A stretch of 64,000 nucleotides of DNA from Burkholderiales bacterium 70-64 (lineage in GTDB: Bacteria > Pseudomonadota > Gammaproteobacteria > Burkholderiales > Burkholderiaceae_E), in contig MKUQ01000060.1 in assembly GCA_001898645.1 (NCBI GenBank), positions 62,001 to 126,000 on the forward strand. Direction: 5' to 3'. How positions within the stretch are numbered: position 1 is the first letter of the stretch; each line of letters opens with the position of its first letter. Shown piece by piece: positions 3,785 through 44,198 of this stretch. The notes under the pieces are model-generated. The model was not told where the DNA came from. It was given only the letters and a program-made list of their open reading frames with translations, and did not search any database. Position numbers and translations under genes: made by a program.

Positions 3785-3906
3785 GCCAATGGTCTCGCCA
3801 GACGGCCGCGCGGCGGCGGCCCCATGCGCGCCATGCTTCGATGACGAAGCAAGCATGTTGACGCGCATCCCCCGCGAGCGGGGGCGGCTACTCCCCAAGG
3901 ACGGGC
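3785..3906 (-). promoter_or_regulatory. yybP-ykoY manganese riboswitch
   Basis: The RNA read from the minus strand contains GGGGAGUAGC (start at 3896), a GC-rich helix, GUCAACAUGC, a second helix and CGAGACC (GAGACC at 3796-3791) in the order and spacing of the yybP-ykoY aptamer. These are the two conserved loops that dock to bind Mn2+ in this riboswitch class. It lies directly upstream of a GDT1-family exporter, the commonest gene controlled by this RNA. In known members Mn2+ binding turns expression on. Confidence 0.9.
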
Positions 3907-3908
3907 GC

Positions 3909-3914
3909 AGTATA
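3909..3914 (-). promoter_or_regulatory. Candidate -10 box for the riboswitch transcript
   Basis: TATACT on the minus strand, placed a few bases upstream of the yybP-ykoY aptamer so that the RNA would begin at its 5' edge. No convincing -35 box is seen 17 bases upstream. Confidence 0.5.
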
Positions 3915-3997
3915 GCAGCGCTGCCCGGGGCGCGATCGGCGGGGGCGGCCTCGTCCCCTTGCCCTTACCATATCCGGCCGCCTCGACTCCCCCGCAC

Positions 3998-6826
3998 ATG
4001 CCCGAACCGCCCCTTCGACCCGAGCAGCGCGCCGGCGTCCTCGACGACCCGTCGCTGCGCGACGCCGGCGAGGTGGCGCGGGCGCTCGGCACCGACCTCG
4101 AGCGCGGGCTGGGCGCGCAGGAGGCGGCGCGCCGCCTCGCGCGCGACGGCCCGAACGAGCTGCGCGCAACGCCGCCGCCGCCCGCCTGGCGCCGCCTGCT
4201 CGCCCAGTTCCGGGACCCGCTCGTCTACCTGCTGCTGGCCGCGGTGGTCATCTCGCTCGCCGCCTGGGCGATCGAGGGCGCGGCCGGCTGGCCGGTGGAC
4301 GCGCTCGTCATCGCCCTGATCGTCGCGGCCAACGGCATGCTCGGCTACATGCAGGAGGCCAGGGCGCAGAACGCGGTGGCGGCCCTGGCGCGCATGACGG
4401 CGGTCACCTCCGCGGTGGTGCGCGACGGCCGCCTGCAGCGCGTGCCCAGCGCCGCGCTGGTGCGCGGCGACCTGCTGGTGCTGGGCGAGGGCGACGCCGT
4501 GGGCGCGGACGCGCGCCTGGTGCAGGCTGCCTCGCTGCGCGTGCTGGAAGCCTCGCTCACCGGCGAGAGCGAGGCGGTGCTCAAGGACGCGGACACGCTG
4601 CCCGAACCGGCGGCGCTCGGCGATCGGCTCGACATGGTGTTCAAGGGCACGGCCGTGGCGCAGGGCACGGGCCGTGCCGTGGTGACCGCGACCGGCATGC
4701 GCACCGAGGTGGGCTCGATCGCCGGCATGCTCGAGTCGGCCGAAGAGGCGCCCAGCCCGCTGCAGAAGGAAGTGGCGCGCATCGGGCGTACCCTCGGCGT
4801 CGCGGTGCTGGTCATCGCCGCGGTGGTGATGGCGACCGTGTTCGTGATCTCCGGCGTGCGCACGGCCGGCGGCGCGGTCGAGATCCTGCTGTTCGGCGTG
4901 TCGCTGGCGGTGGCGGCGGTCCCCGAGGGGCTGCCGGCGATCCTCTCGGTGGTGCTCGCCCTCGGGGTACAGCGCATGGCCCGGCGCAACGCCATCGTCA
5001 AGGAGCTCTCCTCGGTGGAGACGCTCGGCTCGGCGTCGGTGATCGCCGCCGACAAGACCGGCACGCTGACCCGCTCGGAGATGACCATCGTGCGCCTGAT
5101 CACCGCCTCGGGCACCGCGCGCCTGACCGGCGTGGGCTACGCGCCGCACGGGCGCCTCGAGTGCGAGGCCAGCGGGACGCCCGGCGAGGCGATGCTGGCC
5201 GAGGACATCGTGGTGCTCAGCGGCGGCAGCCTCGCCGGCAACGCCGCGCTGCACCAGGGTCCCGATGGCCGGTGGCAGATCCAGGGCGACCCGACCGAAG
5301 CGGCGTTCCTGGTGGCCGAGCGCAAGGCCGGCCTCGCCGAGCGGCGCCGGCGGCGCTTCGCGCGCGTCGGCGAGATCCCGTTCACCTCCGAGCGCAAGAT
5401 GATGTCCACCATCGAGGTGGACCACGAGCACGGCGGGCAACTGGTGGTGATCGCCAAGGGCGCGCCGGACGTTCTCCTCGGGCGATGCAGCCGGATGCGC
5501 GCCGGCATGGAGGTCGTCGACCTGGACGAGCGGTCGCGCGCGCGCATCCTCGCCGAAGTCGACGGGCTCTCCGACGCGGCGCTGCGCACGCTCGCGGTGG
5601 CCTATCGCCCGCTCGAAGCGGGCGAGGACCCCGACGATGCGGCGCGGCTCGAGCGCGACCTGATCTACGCCGGCACGGTGGGCATCATCGACCCGCCGCG
5701 CGAGGAGGTCGGGCCGGCCATCGGCGAGGCGCGCCGCGCCGGCATCCGGGTGCTGATGATCACCGGCGACCACCCGCGCACGGCCGCGCGCATCGCTGCC
5801 GACCTCGGCATCGTCGAGGCCGGGGCCGGTGAGCACGCGGGAGCCGGCGTGCTCACCGGCCGCGAGCTCGAGCGGATGGACGATGCGGCGCTGGCCGAGG
5901 CGGTGCGCGCCACGTCGGTGTACGCGCGCGTGGAGCCGCGCCACAAGCTGCGCATCGTCGACGCGCTGCAGGCCGCCGGCCACGTCGTCGCCATGACCGG
6001 CGACGGCGTGAACGATGCACCGGCGCTCAAGGCCGCCGACATCGGCGTCGCGATGGGCATCACCGGCACCGAGGTCACGCGGGAAGCCGCCCGCATGATC
6101 CTCGCCGACGACAACTTCGCCACCATCGTCGCGGCCGTGCGCGAGGGGCGCGTCATCTTCGAGAACATCCGCAAGTTCCTGCGCTACCTGCTCTCGTCGA
6201 ACATGGGCGAGGTGCTCACGGTGTTCCTCGGCGTGGTGCTGGCCGAGGCGATCGGCCTGGTCGGCCCGGGCGGAGCGGTGGTGCTGCCGCTGCTGGCGAC
6301 GCAGATCCTGTGGGTCAACCTGATCACCGACTCCGGTCCCGCCCTGGCCATGGGCATCGACCCGCAGACCGACGACGTGATGGCGCGCAAGCCGCGCCCG
6401 TCGGACGAGCGCGTCATCGACGCGCGCATGTGGGCAGGCGTGCTCGAGGTCGGTGCGGTGATGGCCGCCGTGACCCTGCTGGCGCTCGACATGTACCTGC
6501 CGGGCGGGGCGATCGAGGGCAGCCGCGACGTGGCCAACGCGCGCACCGCCGCCTTCACCACGCTCGTGTTCGCGCAGCTGTTCAACTGCTTCAATGCCCG
6601 CTCGGAGTCGGCGAGCGCGTTTCGCCACCTGTTCGTCAATCGCTGGCTGTGGGGCGCGGTCGTCCTGTCGGTGCTGCTGCAGGTGGCCGTGGTGGAGCTC
6701 GGCTTCATGAACCTCGCCTTCGGCACGGTGCCGCTGGGCCTCGACCAGTGGCTGGCATGCGCGGCCCTGGCGAGCGTGGTGCTGTGGACGAGCGAGCTGC
6801 GCAAGCTGCTGGCGCGCCTGCGCTGA
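3998..6826 (+). CDS. P-type cation-transporting ATPase (P2A-like)
   Basis: 942-residue P-type ATPase, close to SERCA/PMA-type Ca2+ pumps and bacterial relatives, acting in the inner membrane. In order: N-terminal cation-ATPase domain, actuator domain with TGES (SLTGESEAV), helix M4 with PEGLP at 309-313, phosphorylation loop DKTGT with D352, the nucleotide domain, the hinge TGDGVNDAP, and a C-terminal block of transmembrane helices. The ATG at 3998 is preferred; an upstream non-ATG start at 3959 would add 13 proline-rich residues. It is divergent from the manganese-riboswitch gene and shares its intergenic region. Ca2+ is the family default; Mn2+ export is possible given the neighbour, but no residue seen proves the ion. 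Confidence 0.93.
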   Translation: MPEPPLRPEQRAGVLDDPSLRDAGEVARALGTDLERGLGAQEAARRLARDGPNELRATPPPPAWRRLLAQFRDPLVYLLLAAVVISLAAWAIEGAAGWPVDALVIALIVAANGMLGYMQEARAQNAVAALARMTAVTSAVVRDGRLQRVPSAALVRGDLLVLGEGDAVGADARLVQAASLRVLEASLTGESEAVLKDADTLPEPAALGDRLDMVFKGTAVAQGTGRAVVTATGMRTEVGSIAGMLESAEEAPSPLQKEVARIGRTLGVAVLVIAAVVMATVFVISGVRTAGGAVEILLFGVSLAVAAVPEGLPAILSVVLALGVQRMARRNAIVKELSSVETLGSASVIAADKTGTLTRSEMTIVRLITASGTARLTGVGYAPHGRLECEASGTPGEAMLAEDIVVLSGGSLAGNAALHQGPDGRWQIQGDPTEAAFLVAERKAGLAERRRRRFARVGEIPFTSERKMMSTIEVDHEHGGQLVVIAKGAPDVLLGRCSRMRAGMEVVDLDERSRARILAEVDGLSDAALRTLAVAYRPLEAGEDPDDAARLERDLIYAGTVGIIDPPREEVGPAIGEARRAGIRVLMITGDHPRTAARIAADLGIVEAGAGEHAGAGVLTGRELERMDDAALAEAVRATSVYARVEPRHKLRIVDALQAAGHVVAMTGDGVNDAPALKAADIGVAMGITGTEVTREAARMILADDNFATIVAAVREGRVIFENIRKFLRYLLSSNMGEVLTVFLGVVLAEAIGLVGPGGAVVLPLLATQILWVNLITDSGPALAMGIDPQTDDVMARKPRPSDERVIDARMWAGVLEVGAVMAAVTLLALDMYLPGGAIEGSRDVANARTAAFTTLVFAQLFNCFNARSESASAFRHLFVNRWLWGAVVLSVLLQVAVVELGFMNLAFGTVPLGLDQWLACAALASVVLWTSELRKLLARLR

Positions 6827-10169: not shown

Positions 10170-11237
10170 TCAGTCACCCACATCGGAAACCCAGCGGCCT
10201 CGCCGCCTGCGCAGTGCAGCCAGGCGGTCGTGGCGCCGGTCGTCGGCGCCAGGTCGCGCTGACGCATCGGGCTGCTCGTCGGTGATCGCGATTCCCGTCA
10301 AGGTCTCGAGCAGATTTTCGAGCGCCACGATTCCCGGTACATGGCCGTCGGCGTCGACGACGAGGGCGATCGCCTCGTGCGCGTTCAGCATCGCCCGCGT
10401 GGCCTCGTGCACACGCAGCGACGCGAGCAGCCGCGGCAGCGGACGCGCGAACTGCGAGACCTCGACGCGGGGGGATCCGCCCGACGCCAGATGCAACAGC
10501 ACCTCGCGCAGGGCGACATAGCCGACGACATTCGAACGGTCACCCCTGTAGATCGGGATCCTGCTGAACGCCTGCACCTCGCCGTTGGTGAGGAATTCCG
10601 AGGCTGGTGCAGTCTCGGGGAGCATGACCGTCATGTCGAGCGGCGTATGGATGTCCCGCACCGTCACATTGGCCATGTAGACGATGTGGCCGATCAGGTC
10701 GGACTCGTCGGAGCCGAGCACGCCCTCTTCGGGTGCCATCGCAATCATGGCCGCGAGCGCGCGCCGGGTCAGCGAGTCTTCGCTGCCGCTCAGCGCGGCG
10801 GTGACGGCCCGGAAGACGGGCAGGATGGGCGCCAGCAGGACGAGCAGCCCGCCCAGCACCAACCCCACCCCTTCGGAGAGCTGCGCGGCATGCGAAGCCG
10901 CATACGTCTTGGGGCCGATCTCGGACACGAAGAGCAGCAGCAGCGTCATCGTGACCGACACCCACGGCACGGTCGATTCGCCCCAGAGGCCGGCAGCCAC
11001 CGCTCCCGCGAAGGTGGCGCCGACCATCACGGCGAACGTGTTGACGAAGAGAATCGCGCTGAGCGCGTCGGCCGGGTGTCGTCGCCGCAAGTCGAGAAGG
11101 GTGCGCGCGCCGCGGCTTCCGGCGGCCGCGCGCAGATGCAGGGCCGGCATCGGCGCGCTCAGGAAGGCCGCCTCGAGAATCGAGCAGGCGCCCGAGAGCA
11201 CGGCCGCCAGCAGGATCCAGAACACGAGCCAGGGCAT
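10170..11237 (-). CDS. CNNM/CorC-like DUF21-CBS membrane protein
   Basis: 355-residue protein with an N-terminal DUF21 (CNNM) transmembrane domain of three to four helices and C-terminal paired CBS domains. The family handles Mg2+ or Co2+ efflux, or supports resistance to divalent cations. The segment EIGPKTYAASHA near residue 112 matches the conserved loop of the family (E-x-x-P-K). The CBS part includes the pattern FSRIPIYRGDRSNVVGYV, which normally binds adenine nucleotides. The ATG at 11237 follows GGGGAG at good spacing and is preferred over a longer Arg-rich reading. Its roughly 190-base leader comes from the mirrored promoter region shared with the divergent Cys-rich gene. Confidence 0.9.
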   Translation of the reverse strand: MPWLVFWILLAAVLSGACSILEAAFLSAPMPALHLRAAAGSRGARTLLDLRRRHPADALSAILFVNTFAVMVGATFAGAVAAGLWGESTVPWVSVTMTLLLLFVSEIGPKTYAASHAAQLSEGVGLVLGGLLVLLAPILPVFRAVTAALSGSEDSLTRRALAAMIAMAPEEGVLGSDESDLIGHIVYMANVTVRDIHTPLDMTVMLPETAPASEFLTNGEVQAFSRIPIYRGDRSNVVGYVALREVLLHLASGGSPRVEVSQFARPLPRLLASLRVHEATRAMLNAHEAIALVVDADGHVPGIVALENLLETLTGIAITDEQPDASARPGADDRRHDRLAALRRRRGRWVSDVGD

Positions 11238-11388
11238 CAGCCGTCTCCCCTGACGGTCCCGACGCCGAAGGCGTGCGCTGCCGCAGCGGCGCATGCGGAG
11301 CCGCACTCGCTGCTGACCGATCTCGTGGAGGTTTCCCGCATGCCCATCCCTCCAGCACGTGGCGCTGGCCGGTAGGCATCATCAGCCG

Positions 11389-11421
11389 TCAGGCGGTTCG
11401 GGGAGGCATGCCATCTCCCAT
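11389..11421 (-). other. Possible 10-codon leader peptide, minus-strand copy
   Basis: Short frame MGDGMPPRTA followed by TGA, at the start of the leader of the CNNM-like gene. It starts 13 bases after the minus-strand TATACT box, so the transcript would have almost no 5' untranslated sequence. The identical frame occurs on the plus strand at 11487-11519 because of the inverted repeat. It has consecutive proline codons. Translation is not demonstrated. Confidence 0.35.
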
Positions 11422-11434
11422 GACGGATGAAGTC

Positions 11435-11440
11435 AGTATA
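11435..11440 (-). promoter_or_regulatory. Candidate -10 box toward the CNNM-like gene
   Basis: TATACT on the minus strand, mirrored by an identical box on the plus strand at 11473-11478. No clear -35 box is seen. Confidence 0.5.
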
Positions 11441-11472
11441 GCCCTCGGTCTCCTCCGAAAGGAACGGATCGC

Positions 11473-11478
11473 TATACT
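11473..11478 (+). promoter_or_regulatory. Candidate -10 box toward the Cys-rich gene
   Basis: TATACT on the plus strand within GCTATACTTG, the mirror of the box at 11435-11440. A start about 7 bases downstream would begin the RNA at the edge of the right arm. No clear -35 box is seen. Confidence 0.5.
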
Positions 11479-11486
11479 TGCTTCAC

Positions 11487-11519
11487 ATGGGAGATGGCAT
11501 GCCTCCCCGAACCGCCTGA
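11487..11519 (+). other. Possible 10-codon leader peptide, plus-strand copy
   Basis: MGDGMPPRTA then TGA, identical to the minus-strand frame. Its ATG is 8 bases after the TATACT box, so translation would be leaderless or nearly so. It ends 46 bases before the start of the Cys-rich gene. A leader peptide with Pro-Pro could stall ribosomes and control the downstream gene; this is inference. Confidence 0.35.
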
Positions 11520-11565
11520 CGGCTGATGATGCCTACCGATCGGCGCGATGCGCCCGAGGTCAGGC

Positions 11566-12915
<1,350 letters not shown>

Positions 12916-44050: not shown

Positions 44051-44112
44051 CGCTGCGCGAAAGCCGGGGCGCCGATGCCGCTGGCGCTCGTCGGCCGTGC
44101 AGGGGTCACGGA

Positions 44113-44190
44113 TCAACGAGCGCGGTTGGTACACGGCCCCGAGCCTGGCGGTTCCGGACATGCCGGAACCCGTTGCAGCGCTCCTCGGGA
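44113..44190 (-). promoter_or_regulatory. SAH riboswitch
   Basis: The minus-strand RNA has CCGAGGAGCGCUGCAACGG, a hairpin (GGUUCCGG...CCGGAACC), CGCCAGGCUCGG and, after a short linker, AACCGCGCUC, which is the conserved SAH-riboswitch order. CCGAG pairs with CUCGG (P1), and GAGCGC with GCGCUC forms the pseudoknot. It precedes ahcY, its usual target. SAH binding should raise expression of the ahcY-tlyA-metF operon. Confidence 0.94.
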
Positions 44191-44198
44191 TGCAGCGG

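Follow-up and report, generated by a model that had tools for sequence, protein, structure and literature searches.

Introduction

Enzymes that depend on Mg are poisoned by fluoride, and exporters are the defence against it that is known best.

The bacterial RNA that answers to this ion is the fluoride riboswitch (crcB motif, Rfam family RF01734). In the available part of one account, it binds fluoride as a complex with Mg2+, and its targets are antiporters, pyrophosphatase and enolase (PMC11139923). Another account, in the sections accessible to us, lists mutS, ion-transport and formate hydrogen lyase genes as companions of the class (PMC2864571). In Enterobacter cloacae FRM, a fluoride operon is described in which RF01734 lies before ppaC, uspA, eno, gpmA and crcB; the accessible sections of this account make no mention of CorC, hemolysin, CBS or a divergent arrangement (PMC5533749). 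In the open-licence literature searched, the available portions contain no account of head-to-head fluoride riboswitches and none of a CNNM protein in the fluoride response, with the reservation that a fluoride-riboswitch gene list of 2012 may contain CNNM. The same literature holds no mention of DUF6062.

Here we analyse a stretch of 64,000 nucleotides from Burkholderiales bacterium 70-64 (the window), in which a perfect inverted repeat separates two divergent genes. We consider it likely that the repeat represents head-to-head fluoride riboswitches, formed by an inverted copy of a promoter-leader unit and predicted to exert translational ON control over both genes.

Two RF01734 aptamers lie back to back between divergent genes

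By direct sequence comparison, the two arms of the repeat (Table 1) are exact reverse complements. An earlier note on this DNA had described a perfect repeat of 52 bp; the repeat is indeed perfect, and its length is 53 bp. The arm occurs exactly twice within the window and finds matches in 0 of 100 shuffles. With mismatches allowed, the inverted repeat extends to 74 nt (89%). The neighbours are those named before: the left protein has a CNNM domain (PF01595, E 3.1e-25), here joined by a CBS domain, and the right one has four CxxC..CxxH modules.

Both arms pass the Rfam gathering cut-off of RF01734 (34). Their cmscan alignments to the family are without broken pairs, and P1, P3, the pseudoknot and the conserved joining sequences are present. 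Both aptamers locate in 5' leaders and face genes, and their kin precede crcB, gpm, enolase and MutS-like genes. Judged by these matches, the inverted repeat consists of an RNA switch already known to sense fluoride, present twice and back to back. Because both arms belong to RF01734, fluoride is the predicted signal for the two of them, and each arm would bind the ion. The GGCAU/AUGCC pseudoknot that the earlier note had noticed corresponds to the known RF01734 pseudoknot, and its idea of a duplicated regulatory RNA giving one signal to two genes agrees with two RF01734 aptamers facing both genes.

We tallied the pseudoknot in 67 riboswitches, a selection from those in the loci examined; one was set aside because it did not fit our pattern. 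Among the 66 that were parsed, pairing is kept in 324 of 330 pseudoknot cells, and both strands show changes. The spelling GGCAT/ATGCC appears in 38 of the 66, and the rest read GGAGT/ACTCC, GGAGC/GCTCC and others.

The window holds two further riboswitch matches. The Mn riboswitch match (RF00080; 45.7 bits, cut-off 45) is a separate element at 3804-3915 (-), which reads leftward, away from a P-type cation ATPase at 3959-6826 (+). A SAH riboswitch (RF01057; 57.8 bits, cut-off 37) is found at 44111-44192 (-).

Table 1. Features of the head-to-head locus, and related riboswitches in the same genome
Feature	Position	Strand	Remarks
Left arm, perfect 53-bp inverted repeat	11370-11422		reverse-complement comparison
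Right arm, perfect 53-bp inverted repeat	11486-11538		reverse-complement comparison
Fluoride riboswitch aptamer RF01734, left (CNNM) leader	11366-11427	-	49.3 bits, E 1.2e-10, cut-off 34
Fluoride riboswitch aptamer RF01734, right (DUF6062-like) leader	11481-11542	+	50.0 bits, E 7.2e-11, cut-off 34
TATACT, putative -10 box, leftward	11435-11440	-	shared GCTATACT block; without consensus -35
TATACT, putative -10 box, rightward	11473-11478	+	shared GCTATACT block; without consensus -35
Predicted OFF hairpin, left	11340-11379	-	3' pseudoknot strand pairs GGGCAU at upstream-ORF start
Predicted OFF hairpin, right	11527-11570	+	3' pseudoknot strand pairs GGU.AGGCAU at right-gene start
Putative 34-codon upstream ORF	11237-11341	-	TGA overlaps CNNM ATG (TGATG); read from sequence
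CNNM/CorC-like protein with CBS domain	10170-11237	-	likely ATG 11237; mechanical ORF starts at GTG 11306
DUF6062-like protein, four CxxC..CxxH modules	11566-12915	+	likely ATG 11566; ATG 11548 also possible
RF01734 before crcB, own genome	C30:7789-7852	+	
RF01734 before MutS-like gene, own genome	C30:14725-14795	-	

The leaders are predicted to control translation

Two outward TATACT boxes, as pointed out in the earlier note, are found between the aptamers. A consensus scan gave no full sigma-70-type promoter (shuffle mean 0.1); therefore, the evidence for the putative promoters consists of the -10 boxes and the GCTATACT block, which recurs in the crcB leader of this genome.

Downstream of the boxes, the 3' half of the pseudoknot lies in the strand AUGCCUACC, for which the start-codon regions offer a partner, AGGCAUG on the right and GGGCAUG on the left. 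The inner stems of the two hairpins differ in sequence between left and right, and the pairing is kept. Compared with shuffles, the right hairpin stretch folds well (z -2.46; 4 of 200 fold as well), and the left one is less clear (z -1.79; 13 of 200). The whole leaders fold no better than shuffles (z -0.19 and -0.94). In the minimum free energy structure of the whole right leader, the AUG is hidden by the 5' aptamer strand instead, and the centroid shows the OFF hairpin described here.

When 26 riboswitches were compared with single-base shuffles for a complement of this strand in the roughly 70 nt that follow, 15 gave p<=0.05; by the same procedure, the start-region complements of the window have p 0.033 on the right and p 0.063 on the left. 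In the leaders of loci L073, L163, L164 and L166, the pairing partner is an AGGA-type site shortly 5' of the ATG. Because the 3' pseudoknot strands can pair with the start-codon regions, these data suggest that translational ON control is the favoured mode for the window leaders. On the left side, the stop of the putative upstream ORF overlaps the CNNM start at TGATG, which suggests that the ORF couples its translation to that of CNNM.

We propose that two closely spaced divergent promoters act here, and that each mRNA begins at about the edge of its own aptamer. In the absence of fluoride, AUGCCUACC would pair with the start-codon region and hinder translation. When fluoride and Mg2+ are present, it would pair with the GGCAU loop, locking the aptamer and releasing the start codon. 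In the left copy, the effect would pass through the upstream ORF, which is opened at the freed AUG (11341) and runs into the CNNM start. Fluoride would then switch on the CNNM/CorC-like and DUF6062-like proteins, in step with crcB and the MutS-like gene elsewhere in the genome.

It is also conceivable, with a rather low probability, that both aptamers are fluoride riboswitches controlling termination or RNA stability, and that the start-region hairpin is incidental. Overlapping terminators are reported as common for the class in the available sections of PMC2864571, and two leaders of locus L044 have a terminator-like platform, in which GGGGC ahead of a T run is the partner of the 3' pseudoknot strand. 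In the window, however, no terminator-like site was found in 11200-11700, and the pairing partner sits at the start codons, both of which argue against this reading.

The two divergent genes

The left protein passes the cut-offs of PF01595 (89.3 bits, cut-off 28.4) and CBS (27.8 bits, cut-off 24), and its profile matches 7m1u with E 1.4e-35. It stays below the cut-offs of the NCBIfam models that it matches, CorC and PaeA included; the CorC equivalog NF011675 gives 33.9 bits against 379. Six peptide patterns, by which distant or unlucky relatives are missed, were run against 84,980 species, each represented by one genome, and revealed 31 CNNM loci. Two of them encode proteins above 40% identity (45 and 44%), and the rest are at about 30% or less. 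Both of the closer relatives belong to gpm|enolase-CNNM loci under head-to-head fluoride riboswitch pairs. At the other 29 loci, no fluoride riboswitch was found at E<=1 with our own model up to 4 kb on each side. Within the bacterium's own family, CNNM proteins are present in 74 of 74 genomes, and the top match from any other genome has 28% identity. Among plasmids, 54 records have CNNM matches, none of them at 60% identity or more. The left protein is a probable new fluoride-response protein.

The right protein scores 26.1 bits against PF19538, just under the gathering cut-off of 27, and is therefore called DUF6062-like; two relatives in L044 pass (39.4 and 60.9). An alignment of three sequences shows no change in the Cys and His residues of its four CxxC..CxxH modules. 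Meanwhile, we notice a GGGCTC tandem repeat inside the gene, at about 11775-11812 (+), which gives a GLGLGLGLGL run absent from the two L044 relatives. Structure prediction from the one sequence has a mean pLDDT of 39.5 and was set aside, and a search for solved relatives returned none that is credible (one match, E 0.67).

We searched for DUF6062-like proteins regardless of riboswitches, scoring up to four candidates per genome in 399 genomes. Strong matches are present in 2 of the 399 genomes (three copies) and in 2 of 72,556 plasmid records. All five strong copies locate downstream of a fluoride riboswitch in the same direction. In four of these, no other annotated or long ORF stands between the riboswitch and the DUF6062-like gene, and the remaining copy (L044 3804-5219) is the third gene of an apparent operon. 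Four weak partial matches lie away from RF01734: two genomes (G041, G042) contain no RF01734 at all, and two others (G250, G295) contain none in the loci fetched. G041 and G042 also provide the only matches, both weak, outside the own genome in the own family of 74 genomes. A PF19538 search in 398 genomes gave no match and missed the own genome as well, hence it is uninformative. The recurrent position behind RF01734 makes the right protein another probable member of the fluoride response.

Because close CNNM and DUF6062-like matches are missing in the own family, both genes were probably acquired. In seven stretches downstream of glmS from genus relatives, two of which end early at contig ends, only glmS of nine window proteins is found, joined by glmU in one. 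We also considered an island marked by base composition and rejected it; no GC dip extends across the two genes.

Head-to-head pairs recur in other genomes

In a sample of the order, fluoride riboswitches at E<=0.001 occur in 65 of 399 genomes (53 over the cut-off), and in a sample of the phylum in 67 of 398 (57 over the cut-off). Nine genomes are shared by the two lists, giving 123 riboswitch-bearing genomes. Head-to-head pairs within 500 nt are present in 2 of these 123, one pair in the own genome and two in G152; second copies may be missed in both samples because 12 candidates were scored per genome. In the family sample, where the candidates scored per genome were likewise limited in number, 5 of 74 genomes carry the riboswitch, and a head-to-head pair was found in the own genome alone.

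On the other hand, two Rhizobiales genomes (G825 and G826, with loci L073 and L074) contain 13 and 9 riboswitches, including three and four pairs, respectively, and two Burkholderia plasmids have one pair each before crcB. Altogether, twelve pairs are found on six genomes or plasmids. The Rhizobiales genomes were reached via the CNNM search and the plasmids via the DUF6062-like search, outside the order and phylum samples. Since these pair-rich genomes were reached through the genes of interest, the frequency of pairs is no unbiased rate. Taken as a whole, the head-to-head layout is rare, but it is frequent in a small number of genomes whose fluoride regulons are large.

The genes flanking the pairs include gpm|enolase-CNNM, dynamin-like|dynamin-like, CLC-like|MutS-like and Usp-like|pyrophosphatase-like, in which the CLC, Usp and pyrophosphatase names were assigned by reading the sequences. 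Two outward fluoride riboswitches in a further genome (G117) are separated by 1.8 kb and were left out of the pair count.

The fluoride regulons of the two Rhizobiales genomes are unusually large. In G152, the region L044 1-20000 (G152:C44) forms a fluoride-riboswitch island with two DUF6062-like, two MutS-like and three dynamin-like genes and a HIT protein. One of its dynamin-like proteins has a weak DUF6062 match near the C-terminus (20.2 bits, cut-off 27).

Origin of the mirrored layout and further alternatives

The aptamer cores of the window pair are identical (46/46). The core agrees with the crcB copy in 42 of 48 columns and with the MutS copy in 43 of 56. In the eleven other head-to-head pairs, two of which are near-copies on related plasmids, the two cores are 60-82% identical. 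An identity forced by function is ruled out by these diverged pairs; therefore, the perfect match of this pair suggests that it was duplicated recently or was evened out by gene conversion. The earlier note had held that a perfect match is hard to keep unless recent or functional: a recent event or gene conversion is indicated, and the layout elsewhere does without identity. Nor is the arm absent elsewhere, an outcome which that note had considered, as related copies exist in the own genome and in other genomes.

The similarity extends into the GCTATACT flank, where shuffles align as well in 2 of 1000 cases for left against right, and in 0 of 1000 for right against crcB and for left against crcB. 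The parts 3' of the aptamer are not clearly alike between left and right (equalled by 68 of 1000 shuffles); hence only the -10 box and the aptamer can be assigned to the copied unit with certainty. We conclude that a promoter-leader unit, comprising at least these two parts, was duplicated as an inverted copy, either in recent times or with gene conversion afterwards.

Perfect identity over 53 bp would also fit a recent event that left only one functional arm, the other being an inverted duplication or gene-conversion copy without function, and the left start region does open a short upstream ORF, not CNNM directly. We consider this very unlikely: both copies retain a -10 box and a full aptamer, each has a start-region complement whose inner stem is spelled in its own way, and kin of the CNNM gene are likewise under fluoride riboswitches. 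Two functional arms remain the preferred reading.

The signal guessed in the earlier note, a divalent metal, is highly improbable. It is in line with the membership of the left gene in the CNNM/CorC metal-transport family and with the binding of fluoride as an Mg2+ complex, as stated in the available part of PMC11139923. However, the family that both arms match is RF01734 and none of the metal riboswitches, so that reading them as metal riboswitches is rejected, and the genes behind their kin are those of crcB, gpm, enolase and MutS-like proteins. The prediction is fluoride, not a divalent metal as such.

A mobile inverted repeat of the MITE or REP type, which the earlier note had already thought less likely, or an assembly artefact can be practically dismissed, although both typically show long perfect inverted repeats: the other own-genome copies are single aptamers before crcB and MutS-like genes and whole inverted units were not found at unrelated loci there, the arm flanks differ, similar diverged pairs exist in other genomes, and of the 42 plasmid records that match one aptamer none covers 80% or more of the pair.

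Discussion

Beyond this locus, we see the chances as evenly balanced that head-to-head pairs represent a distinct, reused "fluoride divergon", and that the CNNM subfamily and the DUF6062-like proteins are unrecognised dedicated parts of the fluoride response. Perhaps these proteins handle Mg2+ or Mg-F complexes, and protect or repair metal sites hit by fluoride. If a CNNM/CorC-type protein is under fluoride control, it links metal transport with fluoride tolerance. If a DUF6062-like protein takes part in the response, a family without a role receives one. The twin switch would be a natural two-output device, with one ion driving two operons.

Among known proteins, the CNNM/CorC family, with solved members 7m1u and 7m1t, shares PF01595 and CBS with the window protein; the latter differs in falling short of the CorC and PaeA cut-offs, and the two relatives found above 40% both belong to fluoride loci. 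The DUF6062 family (PF19538) is related to the right protein by a weak profile match, and that protein carries the four CxxC..CxxH modules.

As in the Enterobacter cloacae FRM operon, in its available description, RF01734 precedes fluoride-target genes, and the window's kin loci also contain gpm and eno. The difference is that the operon has one riboswitch before one operon (PMC5533749, sections available). With the fluoride riboswitch as a class, the window shares P1, P3, the pseudoknot and kin before crcB and MutS-like genes. It differs from the class in having two identical copies head to head, with 53 nt between the Rfam matches, which face two genes; in its start-region platform; and in its targets, CNNM and DUF6062-like. 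The riboswitch class is known, whereas the mirrored layout and the two genes served look new.
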